A stretch of 64,000 nt of DNA from Luteolibacter yonseiensis. Lineage in GTDB: Bacteria > Verrucomicrobiota > Verrucomicrobiia > Verrucomicrobiales > Akkermansiaceae. The stretch covers positions 806,001 through 870,000 of the forward strand of contig NZ_JAENIK010000004.1 in NCBI RefSeq assembly GCF_016595465.1, in the 5' to 3' direction. Shown piece after piece: positions 32,478 through 47,366 of this stretch. A program made the position numbers and the translations under genes. Numbering within the stretch: the first letter of the stretch is position 1; each line of letters begins with the position of its first letter. The notes under the pieces were generated by a model that worked only from the letters and a program-made list of their open reading frames with translations, was not told where the DNA came from and did not search any database.

Positions 32478-32485
32478 TTTGGTGC
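32434..32485. repeat. attL-type direct repeat (52 bp)
   Basis: Runs from the anticodon arm of tRNA-Arg to 8 nt past its end. Identical over all 52 bases to 47315-47366; identity stops at once on both sides (G versus C before it, A versus G after it). Confidence 0.95.
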
Positions 32486-33018
32486 AAGTGGTTGAATATT
32501 AGCGAAATAGGTTAGCTATTAAGTCGCTAAGTGGACGTGTTGACGCGTGTTCAAATGCGCCAAAATGCACCGAAAATCCCCGAAATGAGGCGGAAAAGGA
32601 TTACAAAGGGATTACAAAATTTAGATTATCTCCGCAATTGGCGAGGCTAATCAATGGAACCTTTCGGCGCGCGCTAAGGTTCTAGTCATACTCGAACTTC
32701 TTTTTTGCTTTGGAACGCAAGACGGTTCAAATTTTGTTAATTCATGGAATCTCTGAAGATCCTTTAATTCACGGTAGCGTAAAAAGCATTTGAACAGCGC
32801 TGTATCTCGTAGGTATCGGCATTTTTTTTAATTTATGCTCCCATATAGCGGGTATTTTAATGAAATATGAAAATAATTGTAGGAATATGGGAGAGTAATA
32901 CGTTATACACCCGTCCGGCAACGCCCTTCCACCCCTTAAGGGAGGGATGGAACTAACCCTGTAAATCTACAGATTAAGGGTAGAGTTGCGCTCACAGCAT
33001 TTGCACGTATCGTTACAC
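32478..33018. other. Left-end non-coding segment of the island
   Basis: About 540 bp, AT-rich, without a plausible gene. It contains the paired GGATTACA repeats at 32598-32619, a CCCTTAAGGG palindrome near 32934-32943 and a hairpin CTGTA-AATC-TACAG at 32959-32972. The segment probably holds the integrase and excisionase binding region of the left end. Confidence 0.6.
32598..32619 (+). repeat. Tandem GGATTACA pair, putative left arm-type integrase site
   Basis: Two GGATTACA copies spaced 11 nt (start to start). A matching pair spaced 10 nt lies at 47259-47277 inside the right end in the same orientation. Pairs of short repeats flanking the core at both ends are what tyrosine integrases use as arm sites. 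Confidence 0.55.
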
Positions 33019-33237
33019 ATGAACTCATCCGCACCAGCAAATCAGCCCATCATCATGGATGTGCTTAGATTGTACCCTACTCAGGGCGAAGCGGCGTTGA
33101 AGCCGTATATCGTACCTTCGCCATGTGTTCAGGCGAACGCCCGTGGCACCTTGGGAGTTGTAGAGGTTGATGAAGTCAAAAAGAAGGCATTGGCCGCTGG
33201 ACAGCGGCTTCGGGCTCTTTTGACTGAAAGTGTGTGA
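33019..33237 (+). CDS. Hypothetical small protein, island left end
   Basis: 72 aa from ATG 33019 (MNSSAPANQP); the frame also has a TTG at 32986. Soluble, no recognised domain. A C-terminal helix EVDEVKKKALAAGQRLRALL is plausible. Codon use looks coding, but support is weak. Confidence 0.4.
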   Translation: MNSSAPANQPIIMDVLRLYPTQGEAALKPYIVPSPCVQANARGTLGVVEVDEVKKKALAAGQRLRALLTESV

Positions 33238-33247
33238 TAATCAGCAC

Positions 33248-33312
33248 TTGACGCACTGACGTCGGAACCGTTTACATTGCGTTCTGCGCCCTAATTGGGT
33301 GTTTAACCCAAT
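33248..33312 (+). promoter_or_regulatory. Possible promoter and start-codon hairpin before the 33311 gene
   Basis: TTGACG (33248-33253), 17 nt, TTTACA (33271-33276) resembles a sigma-70 promoter with a poor -10. Next, ATTGGGT (33294-33300) and ACCCAAT (33306-33312) form a 7-bp hairpin whose 3' arm contains the ATG at 33311. Such a hairpin could hide the start codon. Confidence 0.35.
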
Positions 33313-33877
33313 GAGTGGCACAAATATAATCTGTTTCGACGATCTCTATTCCGAAGATCCCTATGAGTCCGCTAGGATTTTTGCCCCGTGGGCTGATCAG
33401 TGCCTAAAGGGTTTTGGGTGTGAAAATTATTTCATAAATCCAGATCGTATTTGGGAATTCATCACCTCTCTTCGTAAATCCGACTTTCCTGCGAACGGTG
33501 GGTTTGAAAAGGCAAGCCCATTCAAAAAGGCAGCAAACGTTTTTGTCTGGCTACAAGCAATTGCTCCTTTTAAAGAGCCGCTTAAATCTGAGCAAGTGGG
33601 GGAAGATCTTGCGAGACTTTCCAACAATGCAAATGTTTTGGTGGGGTATACGCTTGTTCAGGAAGCTCTTACAGGTGCTAAGTTATTCAAGAAGAACGGC
33701 GAGCAGGAAACTGTCGTAACCCTAGAAAAGCCCATGCGGATTTCTCGACACATGCTGGTGGATCTCGCTGAAGCTGCACAACGGATCTTGCCTGATACGC
33801 ACTTCAAGACTTATTCGGTTTTATTCGAAGCGTTGTGCTACAACGAAAATGGGTGCGGTTATCCTCGGGTAATCTAA
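33311..33877 (+). CDS. Hypothetical protein, island cargo
   Basis: 188 aa from ATG 33311 (MSGTNIICFDDLY); GTG 33299 is an in-frame alternative. Soluble, mixed alpha/beta, AT-rich codon use unlike the chromosome. Features seen: an acidic N-terminus, helical segments around AARLSNNANVLVGYT-like sequence, and a C-terminal helix with DLAEAAQRILPD. I recognise no family. Convergent with the methyltransferase gene and separated from it by a hairpin cluster. Confidence 0.6.
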   Translation: MSGTNIICFDDLYSEDPYESARIFAPWADQCLKGFGCENYFINPDRIWEFITSLRKSDFPANGGFEKASPFKKAANVFVWLQAIAPFKEPLKSEQVGEDLARLSNNANVLVGYTLVQEALTGAKLFKKNGEQETVVTLEKPMRISRHMLVDLAEAAQRILPDTHFKTYSVLFEALCYNENGCGYPRVI

Positions 33878-33953
33878 ACGCACGACTGGGGAGGTGGGTA
33901 ATGTGATCCCCTTCGTAAATAATCACGGTAGGTCTAGGCGCCCGGCGGTGTTT

Positions 33954-34219
33954 TTCCCAGAATCGGGAATAACCCAGCCCCCAAGTTTGGGGAGTGAAGT
34001 TTCGGCACCTCCCGAATAACCTTTTCCCCAGAATTGGGGAAAGTCCCGGCCTTCTCAAGAGGTGCCAGAGAATCTGCTGGCTACGGACTCAGCAAATTTG
34101 CGACGTCCAAGTGAGGCCCCGGAATTTTAGGGCGTTTTGTTGGGGGGGGAGGGCAATAGCGCCCTCCTGCCGACGCCTCACACGTTAAAGGCCTCAAACT
34201 TTGAAGGGCGGTAGGTGCC
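33954..34219. repeat. Hairpin cluster 1 (convergent intergenic region)
   Basis: At least five stems lie in the 366-bp gap. They are TTCCC/GGGAA (33954-33969, loop AGAATC) and CCCCAA/TTGGGG (33979-33992). An outer GGCACCTC/GAGGTGCC (34004-34066) encloses TTTCCCCA-GAAT-TGGGGAAA (34023-34042). An outer GTGAGGC/GCCTCAC (34111-34181) encloses GGAGGGC/GCCCTCC (34148-34167). No gene is supported here. Some stems may terminate the two convergent genes, but none has a proper T run. Confidence 0.65.
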
Positions 34220-34243
34220 TCCGGGGAGATGGGTTGAGACTTG

Positions 34244-35128
34244 CTAGGTAGGCGAGACTGCACCGCAAATGTAACGATTTCCTCGTTCTGTCAGCTCGTC
34301 CCTGACTGCCGACATATAGACAGGGTCGATCTCAAATCCAATGAATTCCTTAACCCCGCAGCTAATGGCAGCGTAGGCCGCATGGCCAATGCCTAAGAAG
34401 GGATCCATCACCACGGAGCTGCCGTTTTTGCCATGGAGCTTGATGCAATGCTCAACCAGCGCATCCGGGAAGGTTGCGGGATGAGGTCGGTCATCAGCGC
34501 GGCGATTAATTGTCTTGTAGGGTATGAACCATACATTGCCACGGCACTTCAGATCGTCTCCTCCTGTGTGCCCCCACCGGCCAATATTGGACTTGTCGGC
34601 ATACGGAACGCCAATGGCTTTGCGATCCAACTTTGTGTCTCCACCCTTCGTGAGGTGGAAGATATGCTCGTGGCAGTCGTTGACGAAACGATCGGAATTG
34701 ATGGGCTTGTAGTGCCCCCGCTGCCGTTCGGGGCCATCCTTTTTGTCCGGCAACGCGATGGACTTGATCCAATGGATAGAATTCTGGAGATGGAAGAGCT
34801 TGTGCTCATCCGCAAGGAGATTCAAAACTACGTGCGGTAAGAGCGGAGCTTTAAGAGAGCCGCCGATATTCAGAAAGAGAGAGCCGTCGTCTTTCAGCTT
34901 GCGGGACGCCTGAGTTGCCCATTCAATCGTCCAATCCAGATATTCCTGCCAGTCTTTTTGGTCGTCGTAGGAATTGTATTTAATCCCAAGATTGTAGGGC
35001 GGCGATGTTACGATGATGTCGATTGAAGAGTCCGGAATGTGCTCCATCATGCCCTTGATGCAATCGCCTTCGTAAAGTCTGACGGTGGTCTTTTGTTCGA
35101 GTTTCATGTGTCGTTCTTCGTACGACAT
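34244..35128 (-). CDS. Orphan site-specific DNA methyltransferase (N4-cytosine/N6-adenine, beta class)
   Basis: 294 aa; ATG 35107 (MKLEQKTT) is an equally good start. The catalytic motif IV TSPPYNLGIKY (about residues 41-51) precedes the target-recognition region. The SAM-binding motif I MDPFLGIGHAA and FIGFEIDP are near the C-terminus, the permuted order of beta-class enzymes. SPPY is common in N4-cytosine enzymes but also occurs in some N6-adenine ones. No restriction endonuclease is adjacent, so it may protect or regulate the island rather than form a restriction system. Confidence 0.85.
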   Translation of the reverse strand: MSYEERHMKLEQKTTVRLYEGDCIKGMMEHIPDSSIDIIVTSPPYNLGIKYNSYDDQKDWQEYLDWTIEWATQASRKLKDDGSLFLNIGGSLKAPLLPHVVLNLLADEHKLFHLQNSIHWIKSIALPDKKDGPERQRGHYKPINSDRFVNDCHEHIFHLTKGGDTKLDRKAIGVPYADKSNIGRWGHTGGDDLKCRGNVWFIPYKTINRRADDRPHPATFPDALVEHCIKLHGKNGSSVVMDPFLGIGHAAYAAISCGVKEFIGFEIDPVYMSAVRDELTERGNRYICGAVSPT

Positions 35129-35172
35129 CCCTAGTAACTTCTTTCAGAAAACTCGTACAGTCTAATTTTCTG

Positions 35173-35442
35173 CTATTTTATCCTATCGAGTTTCGGCCCC
35201 AAATGTCGACCGAAGATCGATTGAATGCGATCCTCCCACCCTCCATTGTTGTAGTCGAAAGCGTAGCGCCGAATACGCTCAATGAGGTGATGAGGAAGAA
35301 ACATCCTCTGGGACTCGTCAGTAATGTCTTGTAAGGTCACCATCAGGCTTTGAAACCCGCCATCGGTCCGCGAATTGGGATCTTGCCGGCAAACGATTTC
35401 ATATTCTGAGTCATTGAGCTGAAGGACGTAAGTGTCAGACAT
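35173..35442 (-). CDS. Hypothetical small protein upstream of the methyltransferase
   Basis: 89 aa from ATG 35442 (MSDTYVLQLNDSEY); the frame extends to 35505. Acidic beta-rich N-terminal half, then FLPHHLIERIRRYAFDYNNGGWEDRI. No recognised family. Same strand as the methyltransferase gene and 44 nt before it, so it could be co-transcribed and related in function. Confidence 0.5.
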   Translation of the reverse strand: MSDTYVLQLNDSEYEIVCRQDPNSRTDGGFQSLMVTLQDITDESQRMFLPHHLIERIRRYAFDYNNGGWEDRIQSIFGRHLGPKLDRIK

Positions 35443-35595
35443 AGCCAAAATCAATCTTTTTATTTGTGGAGGTTCAAGCCTCTTTTTACCTGAAGAAAAT
35501 GGCAATCATCGTAAAGAGTCCTAGATGCCGGGCGGACGAATATCCCACCACGCTTGCCAGTGATCTCCGCGATTTGAAGGGACGGTAGGGTAGGG

Positions 35596-35672
35596 CCCGC
35601 GGTAAGTTTCTACCGCGGGTAGGTGCTGAAATCTCAGCACCTCCGAATCCGGAGACCACCCCAAATTTGGGG
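35596..35672. repeat. Hairpin cluster 2
   Basis: Four back-to-back perfect stems: CCCGCGGTA/TACCGCGGG (35596-35619, loop AGTTTC); AGGTGCTGA/TCAGCACCT (35621-35642, loop AATC); CTCCG/CGGAG (35641-35654, loop AATC); and the palindrome CCCCAAATTTGGGG (35659-35672). They lie just beyond the 3' end of the HTH gene at 35692. No T run follows, so simple termination does not explain four stems. Confidence 0.7.
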
Positions 35673-35691
35673 GCGTCGGAATCGGGGGGGC

Positions 35692-35955
35692 TCAGGCAGG
35701 GTTCTTGATGTGCTTTGCGATGTATGCCTTGTAGTCGGAGATGCGGACTCGGCGCGAACGGGGGCCGAGTTCAACTATTGGCATCGAGCGGGCGACACGA
35801 TCCACGGGCAGGCCGGTGAAGGCCGAAACGGTGGCAATGTCCATCAACTGCAGTTCCTCGATGTTGATGCCAGCGAGCACCGCGCCAGCGATGTCGCGCG
35901 CGGCAATGCGCTTCACGTCTTCCAGCTCGGAGGGAGATAGTTGGATGCTGCTCAT
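35692..35955 (-). CDS. Small helix-turn-helix (AlpA/excisionase-like) protein
   Basis: 87 aa from ATG 35955 (MSSIQLSPSE); the longer frame to 36078 begins with unlikely sequence. The C-terminal half LMDIATVSAFTGLPVDRVAR, followed by ELGPRSRRVRISDYKAYI, matches the MerR/AlpA-type pattern of a recognition helix, an Arg-rich wing and a tyrosine-ending anchor. Such proteins act as excisionases or regulators in mobile elements. Last gene of a short leftward operon. Confidence 0.62.
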   Translation of the reverse strand: MSSIQLSPSELEDVKRIAARDIAGAVLAGINIEELQLMDIATVSAFTGLPVDRVARSMPIVELGPRSRRVRISDYKAYIAKHIKNPA

Positions 35956-36035
35956 TGCCGATTCTCGGATAAACAAGCAAAAACAAAGGGCCCCGTCCAG
36001 CCGAAACCAGACGGGGCACGATGTGAGGGAGTGAA

Positions 36036-36350
36036 TTAATTTAAACTCCAGGCGTGTTTCAAAGCCAGATAAGCCCATTCGGTCAACGTAAGACCTGACT
36101 TGCTTGCGACACTCTCAAACCGAGCGTATTCGCAACGCGGGATCTTGATGGCCCAAAGATTCCCGGATCGTGGTGGCAACTCGACGGTGGTTCTTTTCCT
36201 TCGTCTGCCCAGAAGAACGCGCATCGCCTCAAGGCCGCACTCAGACAGTGTTTTGCCGCGCGATGCGCTGAGGCGTTCCCATGCCCCGGCATCAGAGCTG
36301 GTCAATGGGATCAGCAGATATTCAATTTCCCAAGCTGCCGTAGTACTCAT
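36036..36350 (-). CDS. Hypothetical island protein
   Basis: 104 aa from ATG 36350, whose ATGA overlaps the preceding stop. It contains two similar segments (RGKTLSECGLEAMRVLL; KSGLTLTEWAYLALKHA), each resembling the helix pair of ribbon-helix-helix or CopG-like proteins. A DNA-binding protein with duplicated units is possible. No firm family. Confidence 0.55.
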   Translation of the reverse strand: MSTTAAWEIEYLLIPLTSSDAGAWERLSASRGKTLSECGLEAMRVLLGRRRKRTTVELPPRSGNLWAIKIPRCEYARFESVASKSGLTLTEWAYLALKHAWSLN

Positions 36351-36811
36351 GCTGCACCTCCTTCTTCCAGCGACCATCTTCCGCTTTCGATTTCATCCAT
36401 TGCTTTGGAGAGCAAGGAATTCAGGATGTAGTTTTTTCCTGTTCCCGCAATTTGGGCGATAGTCAGAAGTCGAGCCATCTCCCTTTCATACACGGTGGTG
36501 TTGCAAGGGACGGGCTCCGGGCCAACAAGACGTTTGTCGCCTGCTATGATGCGGCGGATTTTTTCTTTGATCTCTGGAATCCTATCCTTATGAACAGGAC
36601 ATTCGTCCGGTTCTGTGCAAAATAGGCTCCCGGTCATTGGCTCGTCTTCCACAAGGGATCTAAGGAGGTCATTCAAAAAAGGCTCAATAGGCCCATTTTT
36701 GGTAACCTTTAGCATTGCGCGGAGCTTGGCTACCCGTGTGGCGTCGAGTTCGAGTGTGGTGGATTTTTGAGCCGCTTCTCTGGCGGTGGGTTTGACTTTG
36801 GTGTTTTTCAT
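36347..36811 (-). CDS. Hypothetical island protein, first gene of a leftward operon
   Basis: 154 aa. Basic N-terminus (KNTKVKPTAREAAQK), helical body, a Cys/His-containing stretch FCTEPDECPVHKDR, and a C-terminal helix AGTGKNYILNSLLSKAMDEIE. No domain recognised. Starts 9 nt after a 15-bp inverted repeat that could attenuate its transcription. Confidence 0.55.
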   Translation of the reverse strand: MKNTKVKPTAREAAQKSTTLELDATRVAKLRAMLKVTKNGPIEPFLNDLLRSLVEDEPMTGSLFCTEPDECPVHKDRIPEIKEKIRRIIAGDKRLVGPEPVPCNTTVYEREMARLLTIAQIAGTGKNYILNSLLSKAMDEIESGRWSLEEGGAA

Positions 36812-36819
36812 GTAACGAA

Positions 36820-36893
36820 AAAGTCCTGCCGTGAGCGATGCGTCAACATCTTCGCCGTCGCGGTCAGGCGACGACTATTCACGGCAGGACTTT
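36820..36893 (-). promoter_or_regulatory. Compound hairpin before the 36811 gene
   Basis: A perfect 15-bp inverted repeat, AAAGTCCTGCCGTGA (36820-36834) and TCACGGCAGGACTTT (36879-36893), encloses a second stem CGTCGC/GCGACG (36856-36873). Read on the - strand, the outer stem is followed by TTTTT and then the ATG at 36811. It therefore looks like a terminator or attenuator placed in the leader of the operon. Confidence 0.6.
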
Positions 36894-37120
36894 GATTCGA
36901 TTTTCGATGAGATGCCGCGCCAAGGGGACTAGCCAAGGGTTTCGAATGCGGATCGGCGTTGACGCGCCGATGGGCGACGGATAACACGGCACGACGGAAT
37001 GGCAAGCAGTATTCGTGGTAATCTTCCGCGCAAATTGACTTCAAAATGAACTCGCCCGCCACATTTAAGAATGTGCGGAACCAATCCGACGACTTGTTTG
37101 ACAAGATCAATCGGATTTCG

Positions 37121-37936
37121 ATGAATAACATCATGAAGGTTTTCATTAGCTGGTCTAAGGAGAGAAGCCGTCTGATCGCTGAACTCCTGAGCGAATGGCT
37201 GGTTTGTGTCATCCAGGCAACTTCGCCATGGGTTTCATCGCGGGACATCGACCGGGGATCGCTGTGGTTCTCTGAAATCGGGAATGCACTTCAAGATGTG
37301 ACAGCGGGGATCGTCTGCATCACCGAGCAGAATAAAAATGAACCTTGGATACTATTCGAGGCTGGAGCTTTGTGTCGCGGACTGTCCACCCAGCGCGTGA
37401 TCACCCTTCTCGTGGACCTGGAACCAAAAGATATTGGCGACCCCCTTGCTCAATTCAATCACGCTCTCCCTACTAGAGATGGCATGAGGGCGCTGGTCAG
37501 GACGATTAACAAAAACTTGGGCGTAGCTGCCGTCCCAGATCCCACCTTGGAAAAGGTATTTGAAACATTCTGGCCACTTTTCGAGTCGAAGTTTAGAGAA
37601 ATTATCGATGATACAACGCCCGACGCGTCCCCTTCCAAAAAGACCAAAGTTGACCCCCTGGAGCAAATCCACGAAATTCTCCGGCGGTTGGACATCAGAA
37701 CCAGGGAAACTCATTCTGCGCTCAGTGCCCTTGCCCAACCCACGCAATTTCGGCGCGGGAGACCGTCCGCGACAGGAATCGGAGCATCCCTTAACTATTT
37801 GATTCGCCAAGCGAGGGAAAGCGAGTCTGGGGAACTTGCTCAGAAAATACAAGAGGCGATCGACATGGGATCTGATGACTCTCAAGCCGAAAATGGCTGG
37901 CCTCCTGTCGCAGGATCGAACGATTTAAATTCCTGA
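37121..37936 (+). CDS. TIR-domain protein, candidate anti-phage effector
   Basis: 271 aa from ATG 37121; the frame is open from 37046 and ATG 37133 is also possible. Residues ~5-135 are a bacterial TIR domain: KVFISWSKERSR, SPWVSSRDIDRG, a candidate catalytic Glu52 in WFSEIGNAL, then GIVCITEQN and WILFEAGAL. A helical segment (DPLEQIHEILRRLDIRTRE) and a basic tail follow. Many bacterial TIR proteins cleave NAD or make cyclic ADP-ribose signals on phage infection. No ThsA, SAVED or other partner gene is adjacent. Divergent from the 36811 operon. Confidence 0.82.
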   Translation: MNNIMKVFISWSKERSRLIAELLSEWLVCVIQATSPWVSSRDIDRGSLWFSEIGNALQDVTAGIVCITEQNKNEPWILFEAGALCRGLSTQRVITLLVDLEPKDIGDPLAQFNHALPTRDGMRALVRTINKNLGVAAVPDPTLEKVFETFWPLFESKFREIIDDTTPDASPSKKTKVDPLEQIHEILRRLDIRTRETHSALSALAQPTQFRRGRPSATGIGASLNYLIRQARESESGELAQKIQEAIDMGSDDSQAENGWPPVAGSNDLNS

Positions 37937-38066
37937 CTCGAGCCTGCCAGGGTATCGCTGCCAAGATGAAGCAAAAGGTTTCCAGCGTCAGCAGCGAAGC
38001 AGTTCCGTCGACGACAAGCGGCTCCCGCGGGCACCACCCTTCCTTTATTGGAATTCCCATCACGGC

Positions 38067-38213
38067 GATGACCTCAGTAGTGCTGAGGTCATCCCGATGC
38101 CGGATTTCCGGCATCGAGGTTTTCCGGGTGGAATCCGGGCAACTGGTTTAGCGGTTTCAAACCGCCAAACCCCCAATGAAAAACCCGCCGCCCATGGTGT
38201 AGTGGACGGCGGG
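38067..38213. repeat. Hairpin cluster 3 (between TIR gene and convergent gene)
   Basis: Four stems in the 345-bp gap after the TIR gene: GATGACCTCAG/CTGAGGTCATC (38067-38093); CGATGCCGG/CCGGCATCG (38095-38116, loop ATTT); GGTTT-A-GCGGTTT with AAACCGC-C-AAACC (38145-38171); and CCCGCCG/CGGCGGG (38184-38213). No gene is supported between 37937 and 38281. Confidence 0.68.
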
Positions 38214-38281
38214 CCTATCCCCGGTATGAAGTTGTTCAAGTTCCGCCACTCGGCGGGCCTGATCCGGGAAAAGTCATTGCG

Positions 38282-38602
38282 TCAAGCCGGGACGCCTGCG
38301 CCCCCAACCAAGGACAATACGAGCCTTGCCATCAGTTCGCTTACGGTCGGCGAGTTCTTCCGGCTTTTTGGTGTTGCCGGGTCGTTCCGCCATTCTCGCA
38401 CCATCCAAGCGAGCTGCCGGCGGGTGATTGCAATGGCGTTTCGTGGGGCGGATTCCGGAAGTGGAGAAGATTCGTCCGCGATGATGTAGATATCCTCATC
38501 CAGGATCGGTCTGCCCTCGTGATTGATGATCTGAACTGCGGCTGTTGTAGTCTGTTTATTTCTGTCTTTCATAAGATAAATAATTTCGCCCTGTGTGGGC
38601 AT
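38282..38602 (-). CDS. Hypothetical island protein
   Basis: 106 aa. The ATG at 38602 overlaps the stop of the preceding gene (TAATG), supporting that start over ATG 38569. Sequence VQIINHEGRPILDEDIYIIADE suggests a small beta domain, followed by a basic helix (RRQLAWMVREW). No family recognised. Confidence 0.5.
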   Translation of the reverse strand: MPTQGEIIYLMKDRNKQTTTAAVQIINHEGRPILDEDIYIIADESSPLPESAPRNAIAITRRQLAWMVREWRNDPATPKSRKNSPTVSELMARLVLSLVGGAGVPA

Positions 38603-39828
38603 TATTCGCTGTCCCCTTCATCAAGATTTCCTGGACTCGAGCAGTAGCTGGAGCCACAACGGCGAGGCAACTTCATGGGGCGATGACCTCCAGATCCGGA
38701 ATTGATGACGTAGGTTTTTCCGCAGCAAGCGCTACGCCCAGGAGGATCTAATGGGCCCGGTGGCGGCTGGGCCTGGCTCATCATCTCGACCTGCCATTGG
38801 TGCACTGCGCATGGATCAGTGTTATAAAAAAGAAAGTCAACGGGTTTATATCTGATCTCACCATCAGCAGTGCACACCATGTCCACAATCAGGGATTCGC
38901 CTGAGACGATTCCGGGTTGCCCGGCAGCGGGCTTGGCCCCAAATATGGTTACTTTCGCTTTCCATCCTGCGCAAACACATAAATTGTCGGCGTGTAGTTT
39001 GTATCTGAATCTTACAGGCAACTCCTGCTGTGATGTCCCAGAAGATCCAGCGAATGGATTGTCTGGGAATGCGTAACAACTATTTAATCGGTTCGGATCA
39101 AGGTCGAGATCTGCCAGGACAGAGCACTCTCCCACGTCCTCGGATTCCTCATCTGAGGATCCCGATCCGGAGTCGTCCTCAATTATTGAGGCCTCGTCGC
39201 TGGAGCCTAAATCTGATACGTCATCCGATTCTGTTGAGTTGAAGCCGGAATCTGAATCGTTCTGGACATCCTCATCAAGAAGGGTGATGTCAGAAAACCA
39301 CTTTTGGTTGACCTTCCCGTCGAACACCTTGATTCCTCCCTCAGCCTTCAGCTTGAAAGTCCCGATCAAAAAGGCGGTCTGCCCCTCGGTCGGCTTGTAG
39401 GTTTCCTTCTCCTTGATCCGGATGTTCGCGGCGGAGTCGTTGGCCACGCAATAAACGCCGTAGGTCTTCCCGGTCGCCAGCGGAACGATGCTGATCCCGG
39501 TCGCTTCGGTGATTTTCACACCATCAACCCTCGGCTCTGTCGGGTCCATGATATAGGACGATCCGGAGTCATCGACGCTGATGGCCTTCGGGTTGCCCAC
39601 CACCATGCCCGGGGCGATCATGATTTTCTGCTCTGCCTTGTTCAGCGTGATCTTGAATCGCTTGTCGCCACCTCCGCCAGTCGAGCGGGGGCTTGTAGGC
39701 ACCACTACAGCCCGGTCGCGAAGCTGCTGAAGGGCTCTATTGACCTGCTTGCCCCAGCTCACAATCTGTCCAATGCCGCGCAGTTTCGGCGGCACGGTTA
39801 CCGTTCCTCTTTGTTTGGTGACATACAT
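38602..39828 (-). CDS. Large island protein with Ser/Asp linker and Cys-rich C-terminus
   Basis: 408 aa. An N-terminal helical part (PPKLRGIGQIVSWGKQVNRAL), then a beta-rich region to ~residue 185, then an acidic Ser/Asp/Glu linker of ~50 residues (DDSGSGSSDEESED). The C-terminal ~170 residues have about ten Cys and a Pro/Gly-rich tail. There is no signal peptide, so the Cys may bind metal. The layered architecture recalls phage structural or fibre proteins, but I cannot name a family. Confidence 0.6.
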   Translation of the reverse strand: MYVTKQRGTVTVPPKLRGIGQIVSWGKQVNRALQQLRDRAVVVPTSPRSTGGGGDKRFKITLNKAEQKIMIAPGMVVGNPKAISVDDSGSSYIMDPTEPRVDGVKITEATGISIVPLATGKTYGVYCVANDSAANIRIKEKETYKPTEGQTAFLIGTFKLKAEGGIKVFDGKVNQKWFSDITLLDEDVQNDSDSGFNSTESDDVSDLGSSDEASIIEDDSGSGSSDEESEDVGECSVLADLDLDPNRLNSCYAFPDNPFAGSSGTSQQELPVRFRYKLHADNLCVCAGWKAKVTIFGAKPAAGQPGIVSGESLIVDMVCTADGEIRYKPVDFLFYNTDPCAVHQWQVEMMSQAQPPPGPLDPPGRSACCGKTYVINSGSGGHRPMKLPRRCGSSYCSSPGNLDEGDSE

Positions 39829-39855
39829 AAAGAAATGTTTTCTCCTGTCGATTTT

Positions 39856-40596
39856 CTATCTGTTTCCAGCGACCTTCACGCCGCCACCATCCAGCGATAT
39901 GGAAGCCGCTCCGTCTGTCGTGGTGAAGGTTGCTTCGATGTGATCCACGAAGGAGGAGAGCTGAGCGATTGCAGTCTCCACGTTGGCCTTGCGGGCCGGG
40001 TAGGCTTCAATGAATTCCTTCACCGCCGTCACGAAGGATGCCTGGTCAGCAATGCCGGGATTTGCGGAGTGCGGACCATACCCTTGCGTAAGGGTGGAGG
40101 TCTCGGATGAGAGCGATACCGCTTCCCGAACCCCGCGCAGCCAAGGAGCCAGAACTGTTCCCAGCGGCTTCTCGATGATGGGGATCACCGCGCTTTTCGC
40201 CACGGCGAACAATACTTGGAACTCCTTGGCTTCCTCGTCTGGAAACATCGCCTCCAGAAAGGAGGTTCCGACGAGGTGGGCCCTCTCCGCGATGGTCTTC
40301 GCTTCTTCTGCAACCGGGCGAAGCTCGCTCAAATAGAAGGTTTCCACGTCGCCCCACTTTTGTTCGATGCCACCTTTCAGGTGCTCTAAGGCAAGCTCCA
40401 ACGGTGTGAGTTCCGCGTCGATCTGAGATTCCGCCTTCATCTTGGCGGCGATCTCATTCTCGATGTCTTTGCCGGGGTCGATGGTGAGGCTGGAACGACG
40501 CGCCCTCAGCACTGAGGAACGCTCTGTCAGCTCCAGAATTTTCGATTCGGTGGCGAGGACGGTTTGCAGTGGGTCGGATGTGTGTGTTTTGGTCAT
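39856..40596 (-). CDS. Hypothetical island protein, helical
   Basis: 246 aa. N-terminal coiled coil (TVLATESKILELTERSSVLR and IDAELTPLELALEHLKG), a central helical region (VEEAKTIAERAHL-like), and a C-terminal helix followed by a short beta tail (GAASISLDGGGVKV). No signal peptide. Same strand and close spacing (27 and 11 nt) to neighbours, so part of one transcript. Family unknown. Confidence 0.58.
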   Translation of the reverse strand: MTKTHTSDPLQTVLATESKILELTERSSVLRARRSSLTIDPGKDIENEIAAKMKAESQIDAELTPLELALEHLKGGIEQKWGDVETFYLSELRPVAEEAKTIAERAHLVGTSFLEAMFPDEEAKEFQVLFAVAKSAVIPIIEKPLGTVLAPWLRGVREAVSLSSETSTLTQGYGPHSANPGIADQASFVTAVKEFIEAYPARKANVETAIAQLSSFVDHIEATFTTTDGAASISLDGGGVKVAGNR

Positions 40597-40607
40597 AAAG
40601 TCAGAAG

Positions 40608-41465
40608 TTAGGAGAGTTGTGCTTCGAGCTCCTTGGCGCGGGCGGCGATCCGAGCCTCACGAGTGAAGCCGTTGGCGGTGCTTGCAACCCCTGTGGATGA
40701 TGCGCGCGAACCGCTCTTTGCTTCGCTCATTGCTGCCATGTCCTCGTCGTGAATCTGGCGTGCGGCGGTCGCTCGAAAGAACTCCTTGCGCCTCGTCTCA
40801 AATGCCATTGACGCTTTGGTTCTCTCGATGCCCTTCAGCGTGTCGAAGGATGGCTTCGTCGCGACACCGGCGGCGGTGGCCTGCGCTTTCAGGGCAGCGA
40901 GCGATGACACTGAATTTTCCACGAGCTTCCCGCCTTCCTTGAAAAACCGCATCTTGTCACCGGCATTGAGCTTTTCGAACTCCGAGCGCTCCATCTTGAT
41001 CTCCGGAGTAGCAAATTGGGAGGCAGTGATGAGACCGGGCGCAGCGGTTGCTGCGGGGTTTCCCGCATCTGCCTTGGGTTGGTGATTGGCGGCGCGGTGA
41101 ATGACGGTAGGGCCAGCCTGTGCTTTGGGAGCAGCCGGAACACCGGCAGCCATTTTTGCGCGGGCCTGCTCCATGGCTTGCCGTCCAGCTTGCTCGATGG
41201 CGATTTCCTTGAGCCCCTCCTCGGCGGCCTTGGCTTGGTTTTCGAAATAAGCGGCCCGAGCTTTTTCCAGTGAGGAAGCTGGCTCCTTCGATTTGCTGTT
41301 TTTATTGAAAAATTTCATATCTGGTGATGTGTTGGATGTGTTGTTTTTGGTGAGAAGTAGTTCGGACCTGAGTTGATCGAGTAAAGCGGAGCGATCACGG
41401 TAGGAAGGCGGAAGCTTGCCCGTCTGGAGAAAATCGTTGAGTGAGTTCTGAGGCATACCATTCAT
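40608..41465 (-). CDS. Hypothetical island protein, scaffold-like
   Basis: 285 aa if started at ATG 41465, which overlaps the upstream gene by 71 nt; ATG 41318 (MKFFNKNSKS) avoids the overlap and gives 236 aa. Very rich in Ala, Lys and Glu, mostly helical, with a Pro/Ala linker. The segment FEKLNAGDKMRFFKEGGKL resembles a short motif I associate with phage-derived proteins. Composition is like a scaffolding protein, but this is only a resemblance. Confidence 0.52.
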   Translation of the reverse strand: MNGMPQNSLNDFLQTGKLPPSYRDRSALLDQLRSELLLTKNNTSNTSPDMKFFNKNSKSKEPASSLEKARAAYFENQAKAAEEGLKEIAIEQAGRQAMEQARAKMAAGVPAAPKAQAGPTVIHRAANHQPKADAGNPAATAAPGLITASQFATPEIKMERSEFEKLNAGDKMRFFKEGGKLVENSVSSLAALKAQATAAGVATKPSFDTLKGIERTKASMAFETRRKEFFRATAARQIHDEDMAAMSEAKSGSRASSTGVASTANGFTREARIAARAKELEAQLS

Positions 41466-41718
41466 AAATCTGATTTTGGATTCGTTCTCTCTCCGCAGGA
41501 TCGGCTAAGCGGCGGCGAAGTCCGGAGCGGTTCATCTTTTCGGAGAGGATGATAAAAACGCACTCGGTGCTCTCAAAAGTTGAGGCTTCTATGCCGTGGC
41601 GTTTGCATAACTGGGAGAAACCTTGGCGGGACAAACCATATACTTTTGCCAGAAATGATTTCGGCGGATCGGCCTGCGGTGGCCTCATGGCAGATCGGAA
41701 AGTATCAATGTCGTTCAC
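41395..41718 (-). CDS. Hypothetical small DNA-binding-like protein
   Basis: 107 aa. FLAKVYGLSRQGFSQLCKRHG resembles a helix-turn-helix, followed by an Arg-rich stretch (RSGLRRRLADPAERER). It lies between the Nu1-like gene and the scaffold-like gene. No family recognised. Confidence 0.5.
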   Translation of the reverse strand: MNDIDTFRSAMRPPQADPPKSFLAKVYGLSRQGFSQLCKRHGIEASTFESTECVFIILSEKMNRSGLRRRLADPAERERIQNQIYEWYASELTQRFSPDGQASAFLP

Positions 41719-41775
41719 GAGCGGCCAAGTAGGAGCGAAGGCTGCAATGTCAACATTATTTTGGATATGTTGACA

Positions 41776-42258
41776 TCATTTATTATGCAACGGGTGATCC
41801 TTCCAATACTCGGATTTCTCATCTTGGAATTTCGTCATGACGAGAATCACCTCGGACTTGATAACTCCGCGCATCTCCATTTGATTCAGGCCGTATAATT
41901 TCTTGGAAAGCGAATCGGCCAACTCGCCAAGCATCTTCTTCAGCGCGATTGCAATAGCGGCGTCGCTGGCTTCGTTTTCAGCACGGCTGATGTATTCGCC
42001 ACGGGTTACGGCAAGCTCTTGCTCGGCACGCTCTGCTTGGGCCCTGACGAGGCGCACACGCTCGCGCCGGAGTTCTGCGGCGGAGTTGTCGCCCGTGCCT
42101 CCTGTGAGCGGTCTAGCGGCCAGCCACGCCACAGCCTGCTCCAGATCCAACGGCATGCCCCCATCGGCGTGCAACTGACGGAGATACTTTTCGGTATAGC
42201 CGGATTTCTCGGCAATGGCTTTGATTGCGTTGGTTGTCTTCGTTGTGGGCTTGGGCAT
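41776..42258 (-). CDS. Terminase small subunit-like protein (Nu1-type)
   Basis: 160 aa. N-terminal winged-helix-like part with IAEKSGYTEKYLRQLHADGG, then a linker and the helical block LRRERVRLVRAQAERAEQELAVTRGEY. The end is AIALKKMLGELADSLSKKLYGL. This order and the RLxRAQAxxxE pattern parallel lambda Nu1 and DUF1441 packaging proteins. No large terminase exists in the element. In phage satellites an own small subunit redirects the helper phage packaging machinery, which is the role I infer. Confidence 0.6.
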   Translation of the reverse strand: MPKPTTKTTNAIKAIAEKSGYTEKYLRQLHADGGMPLDLEQAVAWLAARPLTGGTGDNSAAELRRERVRLVRAQAERAEQELAVTRGEYISRAENEASDAAIAIALKKMLGELADSLSKKLYGLNQMEMRGVIKSEVILVMTKFQDEKSEYWKDHPLHNK

Positions 42259-42383
42259 GGGTGGTGGCGGGGTGATGTGGATGTTTCAGAAAATGATTTG
42301 AGATAGATTCGTAGCGGATCCTCGCAGTCTGCACCGCGAGGCACTTTTCTAACAAATAAAAGATTCCTTATGGGGGGGTGGGG

Positions 42384-42602
42384 TCAGCCCTCCCCGGCCT
42401 CAGCGCTTGGGGTTGCTGCGGTGCCGGTGCCGATGTTCTCAGCATCGGGCCTTGCGAAGGACAGCAGTCCTCTGCGCTCCGCCAGTGCGATAGAACGAAT
42501 CCTTTCAATCGTGGCTTTTGGCGAGATGTCGAGTACATCCAATTTATGGGCGGCGGAAGGACCTGTGTGCCGCCAAGGATTGATGGTTGAAGGAAAGGTC
42601 AT
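42384..42602 (-). CDS. Hypothetical 72-aa protein, end of replication operon
   Basis: ATG 42602 overlaps the preceding stop by 4 nt. LDVLDISPKATIERIRSIALAERRGLL suggests a helical core; the tail is Ala/Glu/Gly-rich. Sixth gene in an unbroken chain of overlapping genes. Function unknown. Confidence 0.5.
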   Translation of the reverse strand: MTFPSTINPWRHTGPSAAHKLDVLDISPKATIERIRSIALAERRGLLSFARPDAENIGTGTAATPSAEAGEG

Positions 42603-42958
42603 GGTGTGGAGGTGGATGTTGACTTGATACGAACAGCGCGTGCCTTGCCCGTGGCGACGCGGAAGGCATCGTCCGCCGCCTCTTTGGCCAGCGGGAGGCA
42701 ATGGAGTATCATTCGCCCTTGTGCATGCTCTGGCGCGGTGCAATCGGCTATCGTTGCGATGATCAGACAATGAGGACCAAGGACGGCGAGCGCATCGGTT
42801 GCGGACTGGCTGAGCGCGATCTTCACCACTCCGGGGTGGTCCAACTGGTGCCCCGGAAGTTCCGCTCGGGACTGTCGGGACACGCCCCCCTTTATATAAG
42901 GGGGGCTCTGTCCCTGTCCCGATTCAGCGGCGGGACGATTGTGGCTTGTCCCGCTCAT
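42599..42958 (-). CDS. Hypothetical 119-aa protein of the replication operon
   Basis: Overlaps the helicase gene stop and the next start by 4 nt each, which supports translation. After a Ser/Gln/Gly-rich N-terminus, residues ~45-105 form an alternating beta/alpha pattern (VLGPHCLIIATIADC; ILHCLPLAKEAADDAF). No family recognised. Confidence 0.5.
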   Translation of the reverse strand: MSGTSHNRPAAESGQGQSPPYIKGGVSRQSRAELPGHQLDHPGVVKIALSQSATDALAVLGPHCLIIATIADCTAPEHAQGRMILHCLPLAKEAADDAFRVATGKARAVRIKSTSTSTP

Positions 42959-44478
42959 GTCCCGATTGTCCCGATGGGGTTAAGCACCCATATTCCTGCG
43001 CCCGTATTTCTCAGAACTCCAATAGCTTCTGCCCGCTGCATCCGCTTTTTCATCGTCGCGGTTTTCGTTAGACTTTCTGTCCCGGAAATGTCCCGCTCGG
43101 CGATTGCGGCCTCATCCGGCGTCAGTCCGGGACAACTTGATTTTGTCCCGATTTCTTCCGCTTTTTGAAAGATGGGCTCCCATTCCGCCCGCGCTTTCTG
43201 AACTGCTTTCATCTCAATCTGGGCGGCTTTGACTCCTGCCGCACGGCCTTGGAATTTGTGCATACCAATCGAATCATCCCAGCCGAAGCAGAAGCCCTGC
43301 TCCTTGGGGATCTCACGCTTCCTCATGTCGCTGCCGTAGATCGTGGAGATGGACGTTTCCGCATCCTTGTCGATCCGGAGGTTGGCAAACGCCTTCCGGT
43401 TCAGTTCGCTGCCCAAGTGTCCGCGCGTCTTGCCCTGATCACTGGTGGGATTCTCATGAAGGACGCAGAAGATGGCACACCGGAATTCCTGGGCCATTGC
43501 ATGAATGCGGGAAACAAGTTCCAGCGCTTCACCCTCATCATTTGGTGAGATACAGAGGTCCGCAACGCCGTCGAGCAAGACAAGGTCCGAACCACCGCGC
43601 CCGTCCTCATACGTCAAGGTCTGACGCAAGATCTCCAGCCGCTCGGTCCGCCGGAACATGACCAGGGGCAGGGAGACAAGTCTCGGTGAAACTTGCCCGA
43701 GTCCGGAACGGTGGATGCTCCGACAAACCAAGGCGTGCCAGTCTGCCTGAGATTGTTCTGTATCCAGGTGAACAAGTGCTCCGTCGTCTTCCCCGGCCCA
43801 TGAGATACAGAGAGTATCACCTTCTGCCTGATATCGTCCGCGTTGCGCGGCTCCCATGATAGCGGAAATCAACGCCGATTTTCCAACTTTCGATTTCCCT
43901 TGCAAGACCGTGATGTTGCCACGCGCCGCGATTGGAATATCGCCGATGACCATGCACGCCTCGTCCGGTGGCGGAGTCTTGTCAGGATCGAACCGCAAGG
44001 CGTAGGCCCGCTCTCTGAGGTTTGATTTTTGAGTAGCGCCTTCGTTCCCAATTTCAGCAAGCTCCTTGGCGATGGGTGAAATATCATCACCTTTCGCAAT
44101 CGCATCGTTCAATTTCCAGACGAGCAACTGCTGGCGCTTTACCTTATCGTATTCGGCCAATCGATTCAGCAACGGCCCGCAATCTGAAGGCATCGGCCCA
44201 AATGCTTGGGAACATTCGATGAGTTCATCCCGGGTGCTCGCTGGAGCTTCGGCAAACCACACCACCAGTCCAGGGAAGTCTTTCACTCCTTCCTCCAACA
44301 TGGCTTGTCTAACTCCGCCTGCTACGTCTTGTAGGGGGGCGGTCGGGAAAGCATGCCAGCCGAAATCGTTTATCTCCTTGGGACCGTATTCGATCCATGA
44401 GCGGATGAGGCGACGTGCAGCAGTCTCCGCGCCGGCCAGAAGTTGCTCATGAGCTACTTTGGGAACGGCAACGGTCAT
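42955..44478 (-). CDS. RepA-like AAA/RecA-fold helicase (island replication protein)
   Basis: 507 aa. Walker A GKSKVGKS at residues 194-201 (GNITVLQG precedes it), Walker B DLVLLDGVADL at 298-308, and a sensor-like VLHENP followed by KTRGHLGSELNRKA. This is the RSF1010 RepA/AAA_25 helicase group used by plasmids, phages and satellites. Residues 1-170 have no recognised primase motif. The C-terminal ~60 residues (LTPDEAAIAERD, then AIGVLRNTGAGIWVL) look like a winged helix. It probably unwinds the excised circle during replication. Confidence 0.8.
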   Translation of the reverse strand: MTVAVPKVAHEQLLAGAETAARRLIRSWIEYGPKEINDFGWHAFPTAPLQDVAGGVRQAMLEEGVKDFPGLVVWFAEAPASTRDELIECSQAFGPMPSDCGPLLNRLAEYDKVKRQQLLVWKLNDAIAKGDDISPIAKELAEIGNEGATQKSNLRERAYALRFDPDKTPPPDEACMVIGDIPIAARGNITVLQGKSKVGKSALISAIMGAAQRGRYQAEGDTLCISWAGEDDGALVHLDTEQSQADWHALVCRSIHRSGLGQVSPRLVSLPLVMFRRTERLEILRQTLTYEDGRGGSDLVLLDGVADLCISPNDEGEALELVSRIHAMAQEFRCAIFCVLHENPTSDQGKTRGHLGSELNRKAFANLRIDKDAETSISTIYGSDMRKREIPKEQGFCFGWDDSIGMHKFQGRAAGVKAAQIEMKAVQKARAEWEPIFQKAEEIGTKSSCPGLTPDEAAIAERDISGTESLTKTATMKKRMQRAEAIGVLRNTGAGIWVLNPIGTIGT

Positions 44479-44729
44479 GCGAGGCCGTCCTTTCCGGTTT
44501 CCGAGGTTGGCAGGTTGTCGATCAAATCTAAGACCCTCGCCAGTTCCTTGTCAGACCGGCGGTTGTTGGTTCCTGACACGAATGGTTCGATCAATGAATC
44601 CGCCTCCAGGTCGTCCCAGTCGGATGGACTTAACAATCCATGGATCTCCACGGGCGCGGTCAAGAATGCCTCTTGTTGTGCAAGCCTCATCCGCCAAGCT
44701 GAATGGCGGTCAACGGTGACGCGTCTCAT
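44475..44729 (-). CDS. Hypothetical 84-aa protein of the replication operon
   Basis: ATGA overlaps at both ends (44475-44478 and 44726-44729). Begins with a basic helix (RHSAWRMRLAQQEAFL), ends acidic. No domain recognised. Position directly before the helicase suggests a helicase loader or regulator, without sequence proof. Confidence 0.5.
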   Translation of the reverse strand: MRRVTVDRHSAWRMRLAQQEAFLTAPVEIHGLLSPSDWDDLEADSLIEPFVSGTNNRRSDKELARVLDLIDNLPTSETGKDGLA

Positions 44730-45055
44730 TTCCCTCCACCTCCTGTGATTTTATCGATAAAGTCGTCCGGCGTGGCGCACCGGACAAAGTCGGTGGTCTC
44801 GCAGAATGATCCGCATTCCCATTCGCCCCCGTCCCGCTCCAGCCACTTCATAACGCGACTTGAACGGACGATGGCTGGGCCACGAAGGAATCGGCGCGAG
44901 CTTCCTTCAGCTTTACAAATGCCGACGAGAAACGTCCCGGAGTCGAAGGGCTGAACGTAAGCAATCAAGCCATGGTATTCTTGTTCTTCACCGAATTGGC
45001 AGTGGATGATGTCCACCATTCTATCGGCTTGGAATTTGTAGTCGTAGGAACTCAC
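44726..45055 (-). CDS. Hypothetical 109-aa protein of the replication operon
   Basis: GTG start at 45055 overlaps the AlpA-like gene stop by 4 nt. Beta-rich (YHGLIAYVQPFDSGTFLVGI), with three Cys and a C-terminal acidic helix. No family recognised. Confidence 0.5.
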   Translation of the reverse strand: MSSYDYKFQADRMVDIIHCQFGEEQEYHGLIAYVQPFDSGTFLVGICKAEGSSRRFLRGPAIVRSSRVMKWLERDGGEWECGSFCETTDFVRCATPDDFIDKITGGGGK

Positions 45056-45264
45056 TTGGAAGCTCCTTTCTTGCGTGGGTTCACACGGGTTTCTCTCGCC
45101 TCGATCAAATAGTCGATGGCGGAGGGGCGGATGCGGACGGCGCGTCCAAGACGGACGACCGGGAGATCACCGGATGCGATGAGTTCGTCAACCGTCCGAA
45201 GGGATACGTGGAGGCGTGCCCCAACGTCTTTTCTATTTAGCAGCGGTGCATTGGTGGTAACCAT
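45052..45264 (-). CDS. AlpA/excisionase-like helix-turn-helix regulator
   Basis: 70 aa. LLNRKDVGARLHVSLRTVDELIASGDLPVVRLGRAVRIRP, given here in outline, matches the HTH_17/AlpA pattern: a helix-turn-helix, then an Arg-rich wing and a DYLIEA anchor (residues ~8-55). Such proteins act as excisionase or early activator in PICIs and P4-type satellites. First gene of the six-gene overlapping operon that includes the helicase. Confidence 0.8.
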   Translation of the reverse strand: MVTTNAPLLNRKDVGARLHVSLRTVDELIASGDLPVVRLGRAVRIRPSAIDYLIEARETRVNPRKKGASK

Positions 45265-45324
45265 GCCGCTACTAGGCGCAGTTGCTCGCGCTCAAGTCGT
45301 AGGCATTGAATCGCCGTTACGTGC

Positions 45325-45915
45325 CTACCTTTCCTTCAAGGTGAACAGTCCCGATTCCTTCCAAAGACGGCTCCATCCTTTTTTGTCTTCGGGAGATGGC
45401 TGGTCCTTGAACTCTTCCGGCCTGGCGACGATATACTTGCGGAGCTGTGGCTTGGTGGGCTCTTTTCCCGTAGCCTCGATATATCTACAATATGCAAGAT
45501 ATGCGAATCCATTTCTATGAGGAAGCGCTTCATGATTTCTCTTTAACGAGATCAATCTTTTGAAAAAGTCGTCCGCCTGATCCGCCGTAAATTTTTCAAC
45601 CACACGGACGAGAAGATCTCCGGCTGTCTGACGCTCGAAATCCATGGGTTCACCAACGATGATTCCCGCGAATATGCATGAAAGAATGGATTCTTGATTG
45701 TATGGATCAACCCTTGCTCTATCCAATACAGATTGTCGGAAATTAGCTGAGAATGCTTCATCCTCTTCGGCTGACGGTGGATTCACAGAAGCGTCTGGAA
45801 TTGGAAAGCCCCAAGTGGCTTCAAATTTTTCCCGGTCTTCGGGTGTGATGTCCTCTTCATGAGAAAGGGATCGCCAGTCGCGCGGCTGGGATTTTGTTTT
45901 TTTCGGCCTGCTCAT
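45325..45915 (-). CDS. Hypothetical protein coupled to the integrase
   Basis: 196 aa. ATG 45915 overlaps the integrase stop by 4 nt, so the two are co-translated. Basic N-terminus (MSRPKKTKSQPRD), acidic middle, then helical sequence with AYLAYCRYIEATGKEPTKPQLRKYI, which could be a DNA-contacting helical bundle. No family recognised; a recombination accessory role is inferred from coupling. Confidence 0.58.
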   Translation of the reverse strand: MSRPKKTKSQPRDWRSLSHEEDITPEDREKFEATWGFPIPDASVNPPSAEEDEAFSANFRQSVLDRARVDPYNQESILSCIFAGIIVGEPMDFERQTAGDLLVRVVEKFTADQADDFFKRLISLKRNHEALPHRNGFAYLAYCRYIEATGKEPTKPQLRKYIVARPEEFKDQPSPEDKKGWSRLWKESGLFTLKER

Positions 45916-47222
45916 GCCGTCCTCCTCCCTGTTTTGATGTTCGTCACGTTCTCGGTTTTCGCGGTCGGTCTGATCGCCCAGAATGCTTTCGCCTCGGCCT
46001 CGGTTGAGATTCCCTTGTAATGCCGGTGCAACAGCTCAGGACTGCCGCCGTGGCCGAGTTGGATCGATGTTTCCCCGGCGTGCCGGAACGCGAGCAGGTG
46101 GAACGTGGCGAAGCTGTGGCGTGCGGCGTTGGCGGGCATGGGGGATGGGAATGGTCGTGGCGGTTCCTCTCCGTTCTTCACGGCCTCCTCCTTGGCTGCC
46201 TCGTCCTCGACCTTCAACCGGTTCGTGGCCTTGGCCAGATGGTAACGGCGGGCCATGGCGGAGCGGGTGACGAGCGCCCCGTCTGTCTGGGCATGGGGAG
46301 TGAGGAACGCGGCAAGCACCGGCTCGATTTTCAAGGTTCTCGAGTTCCCGGTTTTCGTGACGGTGTCGGGCAGGTGGATCTCACCGGCGGCAAGGTCGAT
46401 CATGCTCCAGTCCATCCGGACGGCCTCGGCTTCCCGCACACCGGAGAAAAAGCGGACAGCCCAAAACGGGACGAGCGCGGGAGACTCCTTTTCCAGAGCA
46501 TCGAAGAGACGAGCCACGTCAGCGGGCCGGAGGATGCCGGGGCGGACCTTCGGCGGCTTGGGGCGGGCGGCATCCGTGACCGGGTTGTTCTCCACCCAGC
46601 CGCGAGTCTTCGCGTAGTTGAAAAGCCCCGACACGGCGAGACGGTGGTTTCGTTTCGCCAGCAACCCGACTTGCGCCGGTTCACCTTCCCGCCCTGGCTT
46701 CCGTTTCACAGGGCCCCGCTGGCGGATGGCGGACAGGGAGAGAATCCAGTCGGAAATCTCCGCCGTCGTGATCGAAGAAATGACACGCGGGCCGAAGTCC
46801 TTCGCGAACCGACCGCAGCGTGTGCGGATGCCTTGCAGGCTCATCGGACGCAGTCCCTCGGCGGTCTTGGCCACCTCGTAGGCATCCAGCGCCGCCGCAA
46901 CCGTCACGCTGGACCGGCTGGCCTTCCATGTGGCCCCGTAGCCTTGCAGGACGGAAAGCAGGGAGGGTGGGGGAGCGTGGGGAACGCCCTCGACGAACGC
47001 CCGCCAATAGGCGAGGGCGGCCCGCTCCTCCTCGGTGACGAATCCGAAGTCGGATCCCAGCTTGCCGGTCTCCTTGGCCTGCTCCTTTGCAAAGGCCGCA
47101 GCCTCCGTCTGGTTGGTGAAAAAGCGGTCTTTCCGCTTCCCGTCCGGGCCGTAGAATCTGACCCGGTGGCTGTAGCGGGGATGCTTGCAAGGCACCGCTT
47201 CAATGACGTTTTTCATGACCAT
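45912..47222 (-). CDS. int: Tyrosine recombinase/integrase of the island
   Basis: 436 aa; start at ATG 47222 or 47216. An N-terminal arm-binding region, a SAM-like core-binding domain (about residues 105-205) and the catalytic domain from ~230. Catalytic residues visible: Arg263 (SGVREAEAV), Lys290 (TKTGNSR), Arg368 (NAARHSF), His391 (QLGHGG) and nucleophile Tyr402 (HRHYKG). The His of the usual HxxR motif is Asn365. Its gene reads inward from the right repeat, so it should catalyse integration at tRNA-Arg. Confidence 0.92.
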   Translation of the reverse strand: MVMKNVIEAVPCKHPRYSHRVRFYGPDGKRKDRFFTNQTEAAAFAKEQAKETGKLGSDFGFVTEEERAALAYWRAFVEGVPHAPPPSLLSVLQGYGATWKASRSSVTVAAALDAYEVAKTAEGLRPMSLQGIRTRCGRFAKDFGPRVISSITTAEISDWILSLSAIRQRGPVKRKPGREGEPAQVGLLAKRNHRLAVSGLFNYAKTRGWVENNPVTDAARPKPPKVRPGILRPADVARLFDALEKESPALVPFWAVRFFSGVREAEAVRMDWSMIDLAAGEIHLPDTVTKTGNSRTLKIEPVLAAFLTPHAQTDGALVTRSAMARRYHLAKATNRLKVEDEAAKEEAVKNGEEPPRPFPSPMPANAARHSFATFHLLAFRHAGETSIQLGHGGSPELLHRHYKGISTEAEAKAFWAIRPTAKTENVTNIKTGRRTA

Positions 47223-47258
47223 GCATTATCCCGCAACCCGGCGCGCGGCAAGCAAAAA

Positions 47259-47277
47259 GGATTACACGGGATTACAA
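47259..47277 (+). repeat. Tandem GGATTACA pair, putative right arm-type integrase site
   Basis: GGATTACA twice with 10-nt period, 38 bp inside the right 52-bp repeat. It mirrors the pair at 32598-32619 and lies in the integrase promoter region. Confidence 0.55.
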
Positions 47278-47314
47278 CGCCTGAATTTGCCTTGTAAAAT
47301 AAAGGATCATCGGC

Positions 47315-47366
47315 GGTTTCCTAAACTCTAGATTCAAGTTCGATTCTTGACGGGGGCATTTGGTGC
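47315..47366. repeat. attR-type direct repeat (52 bp)
   Basis: Exact copy of the 3' half of tRNA-Arg plus 8 nt. The 5' half of the tRNA is absent here, so this is the junction left by integration, not a second tRNA. Confidence 0.95.

Follow-up and report, generated by a model that had tools for sequence, protein, structure and literature searches.

A tRNA-integrated island with a lone Nu1-type small terminase in Luteolibacter yonseiensis: a candidate cos-type phage satellite of the Akkermansiaceae

Small terminases encoded apart from any large subunit are known from SaPIs and from some Gram-negative PICIs (PMC6092414). In SaPI-type PICIs, the island's own small terminase (TerS_S) directs packaging by the large terminase (TerL) of the helper phage (PMC6092414, PMC6739421). 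The Rpp protein of E. coli PICIs heterodimerises with the TerS of the helper and thereby switches its target (PMC6739421). In addition, the PICMI satellites of Vibrionaceae represent minimal satellites (PMC10803314). The island described here, from Luteolibacter yonseiensis, resembles SaPI-type PICIs in having an integrase, a putative regulator, a replication module and a lone TerS; however, TerS_S belongs to the pac/headful systems of Gram-positive phages, whereas the island TerS is lambda Nu1-like and has relatives paired with GpA-type TerL, and sister islands have a cos-like block in common with phages. With the Gram-negative cos PICIs (EcCICFT073, RppA) the island shares small size, an excisionase/AlpA-like putative regulator and cos packaging (the latter predicted in our case), but EcCICFT073 has no TerS and relies on Rpp together with the helper TerS, while the island family has TerS as a core gene, followed by a domain-only protein. 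PICMIs are very small and have no recognisable capsid-remodelling gene, as is also the case for the typical 6.7-8.3 kb members of the family reported here. Nevertheless, PICMIs adjoin fis and have a minimal set of three core genes, and the word "terminase" is absent from the main text of the paper describing them (PMC10803314), whereas the islands studied here occupy tRNA sites and carry TerS. Finally, lambda gpNu1 and the GpA-TerL phages of Akkermansiaceae share with the islands both the TerS family and cos-like DNA upstream of it; those Akkermansiaceae phages have TerL, portal and capsid genes beside TerS, and the islands have none of these.

The island lies in the window, that is, the whole 64,000-nucleotide stretch of DNA that was analyzed, and is delimited by a perfect direct repeat, one copy of which is located in the 3' part of a tRNA-Arg gene. 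GC content is about 0.45-0.58 across most of the island, as compared with about 0.60 in its flanks. The general features of a satellite are present, namely an integrase, att repeats and own replication genes with no virion structural genes. Of the PICI layout, in which a Stl/AlpA regulator and a pri-rep-ori module follow a known order, the island has a helicase and an excisionase/AlpA-like HTH protein that may be a regulator. The earlier note on this DNA had called the small terminase one without a large subunit, and this description holds for the att-bounded island, as profile scans of its 14.9 kb found no large terminase, portal or capsid gene. In a joined-flank test, the similarity of relatives to the left flank stopped at the att site, the right flank was not conserved among them, and a clean empty site was not found. 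Just to the right of the island, a second low-GC stretch carries a 1447-aa open reading frame (ORF) with an NTPase-like N-terminus (window 51877-56220), for which no PADLOC family matched. The features of the island are as follows.

32434..47366, no strand: whole island from attL to attR, bounded by a perfect 52-bp direct repeat (14.9 kb)
32434..32485, + strand: attL, within the 3' part of tRNA-Arg(CCT) (32405-32478)
34244..35128, - strand: DNA methyltransferase (N6_N4_Mtase), cargo (Pfam, 2e-41)
37046..37936, + strand: TIR-domain protein (Pfam TIR_2, 3e-6; PADLOC TIR-TM, 2e-53; phrog_13899, 9e-77)
38602..39828, - strand: 408-aa cargo protein, matching no relative in profile and protein scans
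39856..40596, - strand: 246-aa predicted coiled protein, placed by position only as the last core gene of sister islands
40608..41465, - strand: 285-aa protein with a GDKMRFFKEGGK motif, positioned as in islands L110-L112 (weak profile similarity, E 0.028)
41395..41718, - strand: short HTH protein of 107 aa, resembling a lone TerS DNA-binding domain (family profile)
41776..42258, - strand: Nu1-type TerS, 160 aa (phrog_57; C-half like the TerS of viral contig L159)
42358..42384, - strand: ACCCCACCCCCCCATAAGGAATCTTTT, candidate cos-like motif for packaging (predicted function), 100-126 bp ahead of the start of TerS
42599..42958, - strand: 119-aa protein following the helicase, of a family conserved in L110, L112, L121 and L123
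42955..44478, - strand: AAA_25 helicase/primase-like replication ATPase, 507 aa, grouped by clustering with the lone-TerS islands
45052..45264, - strand: excisionase/AlpA-like HTH protein, 70 aa (Pfam HTH_17, 6e-9; TIGR01764, 3.5e-8)
45325..45915, - strand: conserved 196-aa product of the gene following the integrase (L110, a sister island, has a homologue, E 2.6e-27)
45912..47222, - strand: tyrosine integrase, 436 aa, adjoining attR (phrog_1, E 1e-28; PF00589, weak; homologues in sister islands)
47315..47366, + strand: attR, 52 bp identical to attL

Small genes are also found among the cargo, in which the TIR-domain protein and the DNA methyltransferase are possible anti-phage candidates. Part of the methyltransferase gene has a 70% match on contig C1, and approximately 185 bp of the island (36799-36982) are repeated elsewhere in the same genome with 81% identity (G000:C13:69833-70017).

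We then focused on the gene at 41776-42258 (minus strand), an ORF of 160 aa with an ATG start. It had been proposed to encode a Nu1-like small terminase with the N-terminal layout of lambda Nu1, and both proposals were borne out. The protein matches the phrog_57 "terminase small subunit" profile with an E-value of 4.3e-16 (residues 12-148, profile positions 15-173 of 199), and the best PDB match for a profile of 20 homologues is the DNA-binding domain of lambda TerS (6hn7_B, E 0.0012; 1j9i, E 0.022), the other matches including several HTH regulators. The suggested comparison with Nu1 and DUF1441 profiles gave a divided answer: the Pfam scan returned no family at E ≤ 1, so that neither PF07471 (Phage_Nu1) nor DUF1441 is matched, while the protein matches phrog_57 and the profile of its homologues matches the lambda TerS structures. 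No NCBIfam match was obtained above the cut-off. Because phrog_57 also picks up the excisionase-like ORF 45052-45264 (E 4e-6) through its HTH, the HTH part of this profile is not specific, and the remainder of TerS was therefore tested by itself. The segment from residue 87 to residue 152 is 30% identical (E 4e-8) to the TerS of viral contig L159, whose gene directly precedes a large terminase gene. Against a profile of the C-halves of TerL-paired TerS proteins, the C-half of the window TerS alone scored E 1.6, and those of the sister-island proteins mostly between 1e-4 and 1e-28. Judged from its sequence, the window TerS is a divergent member of the small terminase family. An AlphaFold single-sequence model of low confidence (mean pLDDT 63) has an HTH followed by a helical C-terminal part. 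Single-protein scans of viral contigs, genome contigs and phage records found no close relatives, and one further profile (A3) had no match in viral contigs.

To place this gene among its relatives, the TerS profile was searched against the class, the phylum and the family, which yielded many homologues. The neighbourhoods of 65 such loci (including the window) were fetched, and TerS, TerL, portal, capsid and integrase genes were sought in them using profiles built for this purpose. The hosts of the named homologue records are Akkermansiaceae/Verrucomicrobiae. A GpA-type TerL accompanies TerS in 41 of the 65 loci, usually together with portal and capsid genes, and on this gene content we regard these loci as temperate phages or their remnants. 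TerS is lone in 20 loci (the window, L024, L061, L066, L110-L113, L118-L128 and L147), and the remaining four (L077, L078, L130 and L134) are ambiguous, since the contig ends too close by or the sequence is too short. In a phylogeny of 43 TerS proteins, where many branches are long and poorly supported, the lone/paired label changes 7 times, as compared with 14.3 times when shuffled; the lone TerS proteins appear to form clustered lineages, rather than to reflect random losses.

Both ends could be seen in seven lone islands, and every one of these has att repeats at a tRNA gene, each at a different one: 52 bp at tRNA-Arg in the window, 31 bp at tRNA-Val (L110), 45 bp at tRNA-Pro (L112), 19 bp at tRNA-Leu (L119), 39 bp at tRNA-Thr (L123), 40 bp at tRNA-Met (L024) and 39 bp at tRNA-Asn (L111). 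By their repeat coordinates, six of the seven measure 6.7-8.3 kb; the window island, at 14.9 kb, is larger because of its cargo. Protein clustering around TerS revealed a common gene order, composed of integrase, helicase/primase, small protein, regulator-like protein, TerS and short HTH protein. The regulator-like protein precedes TerS in 14 loci, and clustering did not find it in the window. Two further core genes of the sister islands are matched in the window by position or weakly only: the 285-aa protein is the positional equivalent of a short coiled protein, and BLAST of the 285-aa and 246-aa proteins against sister-island genes was not significant. As for the short HTH protein, a profile made from its counterparts in the other loci, with the window left out, detects the 107-aa product at 5e-8 and also TerS N-domains down to 1e-11; the 107-aa protein would therefore correspond to the TerS DNA-binding domain alone. 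Overall, the lone-TerS islands look like a conserved phage-satellite family in Akkermansiaceae, at the level of gene order and protein similarity. Islands L111 and L112, from two related genomes, lie near the same host genes at different tRNAs (Asn and Pro), and the 148-aa last core gene is nearly identical between them.

If TerS acts on a cos site, satellites and phages are expected to share DNA near TerS, and such sharing was found. Between L118, a lone-TerS island, and L159, a viral contig with TerL, the sole DNA similarity is a 74-bp block, 92% identical, which lies directly upstream of TerS in both (-127 to -54 from the TerS start in L118, and -92 to -19 in L159). Island L061 carries a block of 88-101 bp that is 77-81% identical to L073 and L074, two phages found in its own genome, and to phage L069 of the same genus; it is positioned about 310-410 bp upstream of TerS in the island and 195-295 bp upstream in the phages, with which L061 also has TerS and downstream sequence in common. 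At least two relatives of the island therefore each have a short block in common with phages that possess the full machinery, and this block is probably the packaging start site. A piece of the L118/L159 block also occurs in L160, at 2.4 kb from TerS and with genes between. In three TerL-bearing phages (L067, L068 and L160), 2.4-8.9 kb separate TerS from the cos-like motif or block upstream of it, a spacing that would be expected had cargo genes entered the interval. Moreover, in locus L066 (G169:C34), at about 9472-9578, the cos-like block has on its left side sequence with 88% identity to phage L074, and on its right side a TerS of the lone-island type; this looks like a phage-satellite junction exactly at the block, which may reflect recombination, an embedded satellite or an assembly join.

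A Gibbs search of the island regions upstream of TerS yielded a motif with a score of 164.5, as compared with 132-136 in shuffled controls, and with a core, AAGGAATCTYTT, that is often preceded by a C-run. Lone-TerS loci contain five exact copies of the core, all of which share the strand of TerS and precede it by 64-138 bp. The motif family was initially derived from the islands. In a comparison set of 42 loci outside motif discovery, nearly all of them TerL-bearing phages, 4 of the 10 copies of AAGGAATCTYTT are on the TerS strand and no more than 400 bp upstream of the gene, as compared with an expectation of 1.2% (P 4e-6). The window carries a variant, AAGGAATCTTTT, 111 bp upstream of TerS. 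Its 12-mer copy, at 42358-42369, is preceded by ACCCCACCCCCCCAT, and the genome, of 5.7 Mb, contains this 12-mer at three places. The single-strand DNA fold of the region is not remarkable (z -1.43). The suggested search for a cos/pac-like site within the island thus gave a candidate motif in the island itself and blocks shared by relatives and phages; the window has the short motif only, and the large shared blocks belong to its sister islands.

We also looked for a partner for TerS in the same genome. The earlier note had suggested looking in the rest of the genome for a prophage with a compatible large terminase. Across the genome, no GpA-type TerL (phrog_15 or PF05876) was found, and there is therefore no resident helper. 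The two large terminases that the genome does encode (C5:55115 and C12:532784) are both of the phrog_2 type, and each adjoins another small ORF, possibly its own small subunit; they were rejected as partners of TerS, being of another TerL type and each having another small ORF beside it. GpA-type TerL is present in 18 of 73 genomes of the genus. In one prophage region, a 3631-aa ORF directly follows the phrog_2-type TerL (L020 5292-16187; G000:C12:520291-531186).

In our judgement, the island is likely to be an integrative satellite of a cos-packaging tailed phage, whose own TerS recruits the TerL of the helper. The integrase and excisionase of the island would serve both its integration at tRNA-Arg and, after infection by the helper, its excision, and the helicase/primase-like ATPase would serve its replication. 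Its Nu1-type TerS would then recognise the cos-like element just upstream of terS and bring the GpA-type TerL of the infecting helper to satellite concatemers, with the 107-aa short HTH protein probably tuning, or competing in, the recruitment step. That the island is packaged, that it recruits TerL and what the short HTH protein does are inferred from sequence comparison. By analogy, the best reading of the mechanism is the SaPI logic of an own TerS, implemented with a lambda-type TerS and cos. A more tentative proposal, which we hold to be possible and concerns minimal cos-type Verrucomicrobiota satellites, mostly of 6.7-8.3 kb, is that of a two-protein packaging switch, in which a complete satellite TerS would read the satellite's own version of the helper cos, and the domain-only mimic would block or re-target the helper TerS.

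Three other explanations have to be weighed against a TerS that recruits TerL by itself. The island might instead work as the Rpp-carrying PICIs do, with the 160-aa (or the 107-aa) protein forming a mixed complex with the helper TerS and switching its DNA specificity. The DNA-binding domain of RppC is like that of TerS, and RppC works through binding to the helper TerS (PMC6739421); the TerS profile matches RppC weakly (6hlk, E 0.2), and the 107-aa protein shows homology to the DNA-binding domain of TerS but lacks the remainder. Nevertheless, the 160-aa protein retains the C-half of TerL-paired TerS proteins, while only the DNA-binding domain of Rpp has been described as TerS-like, which makes this explanation unlikely. 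A TerS-like domain with no C-half would fit the 107-aa protein, and not the 160-aa one; that the short HTH protein acts like Rpp is speculation by analogy. Less probable still is a decayed prophage, in which virion genes were lost and TerS was kept by chance. The 507-aa helicase is 56-58% identical at the amino acid level to its counterparts in the TerL-bearing viral contigs L159 and L160, which would favour a prophage remnant, as would the hybrid appearance of L066. Against such a remnant, a lone TerS recurs in the same gene order in islands from several genera of Akkermansiaceae; these islands occupy different tRNA genes, their genes are intact and their att repeats are exact. The strong clustering of lone TerS on the tree also speaks against it. 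Lastly, although the phrog_57 match to the excisionase and the HTH regulators among the PDB matches could suggest a plain HTH transcription regulator mis-called as a terminase, this is very improbable, as the phrog_57 match extends over the non-HTH C-half, this half resembles that of the TerL-paired L159 protein, and homologues are immediate neighbours of TerL in phages. The DNA that islands and phages share upstream of TerS likewise counts against the three alternatives.

Lone-TerS satellites and minimal satellites are already known, and it is the cos-type satellite family that is new to the open-access literature searched, in which we found no report of satellites of Verrucomicrobiota, such an absence being weak evidence. 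Based on these results, a satellite family of Verrucomicrobiota can now be read with its borders, core genes, same-genus phages of the helper type and a candidate shared packaging site. A lone small terminase may thus serve as a usable satellite marker outside Proteobacteria and Firmicutes, and the islands and phages of this family would offer a natural series of TerS/cos variants in which to ask how packaging specificity is stolen.
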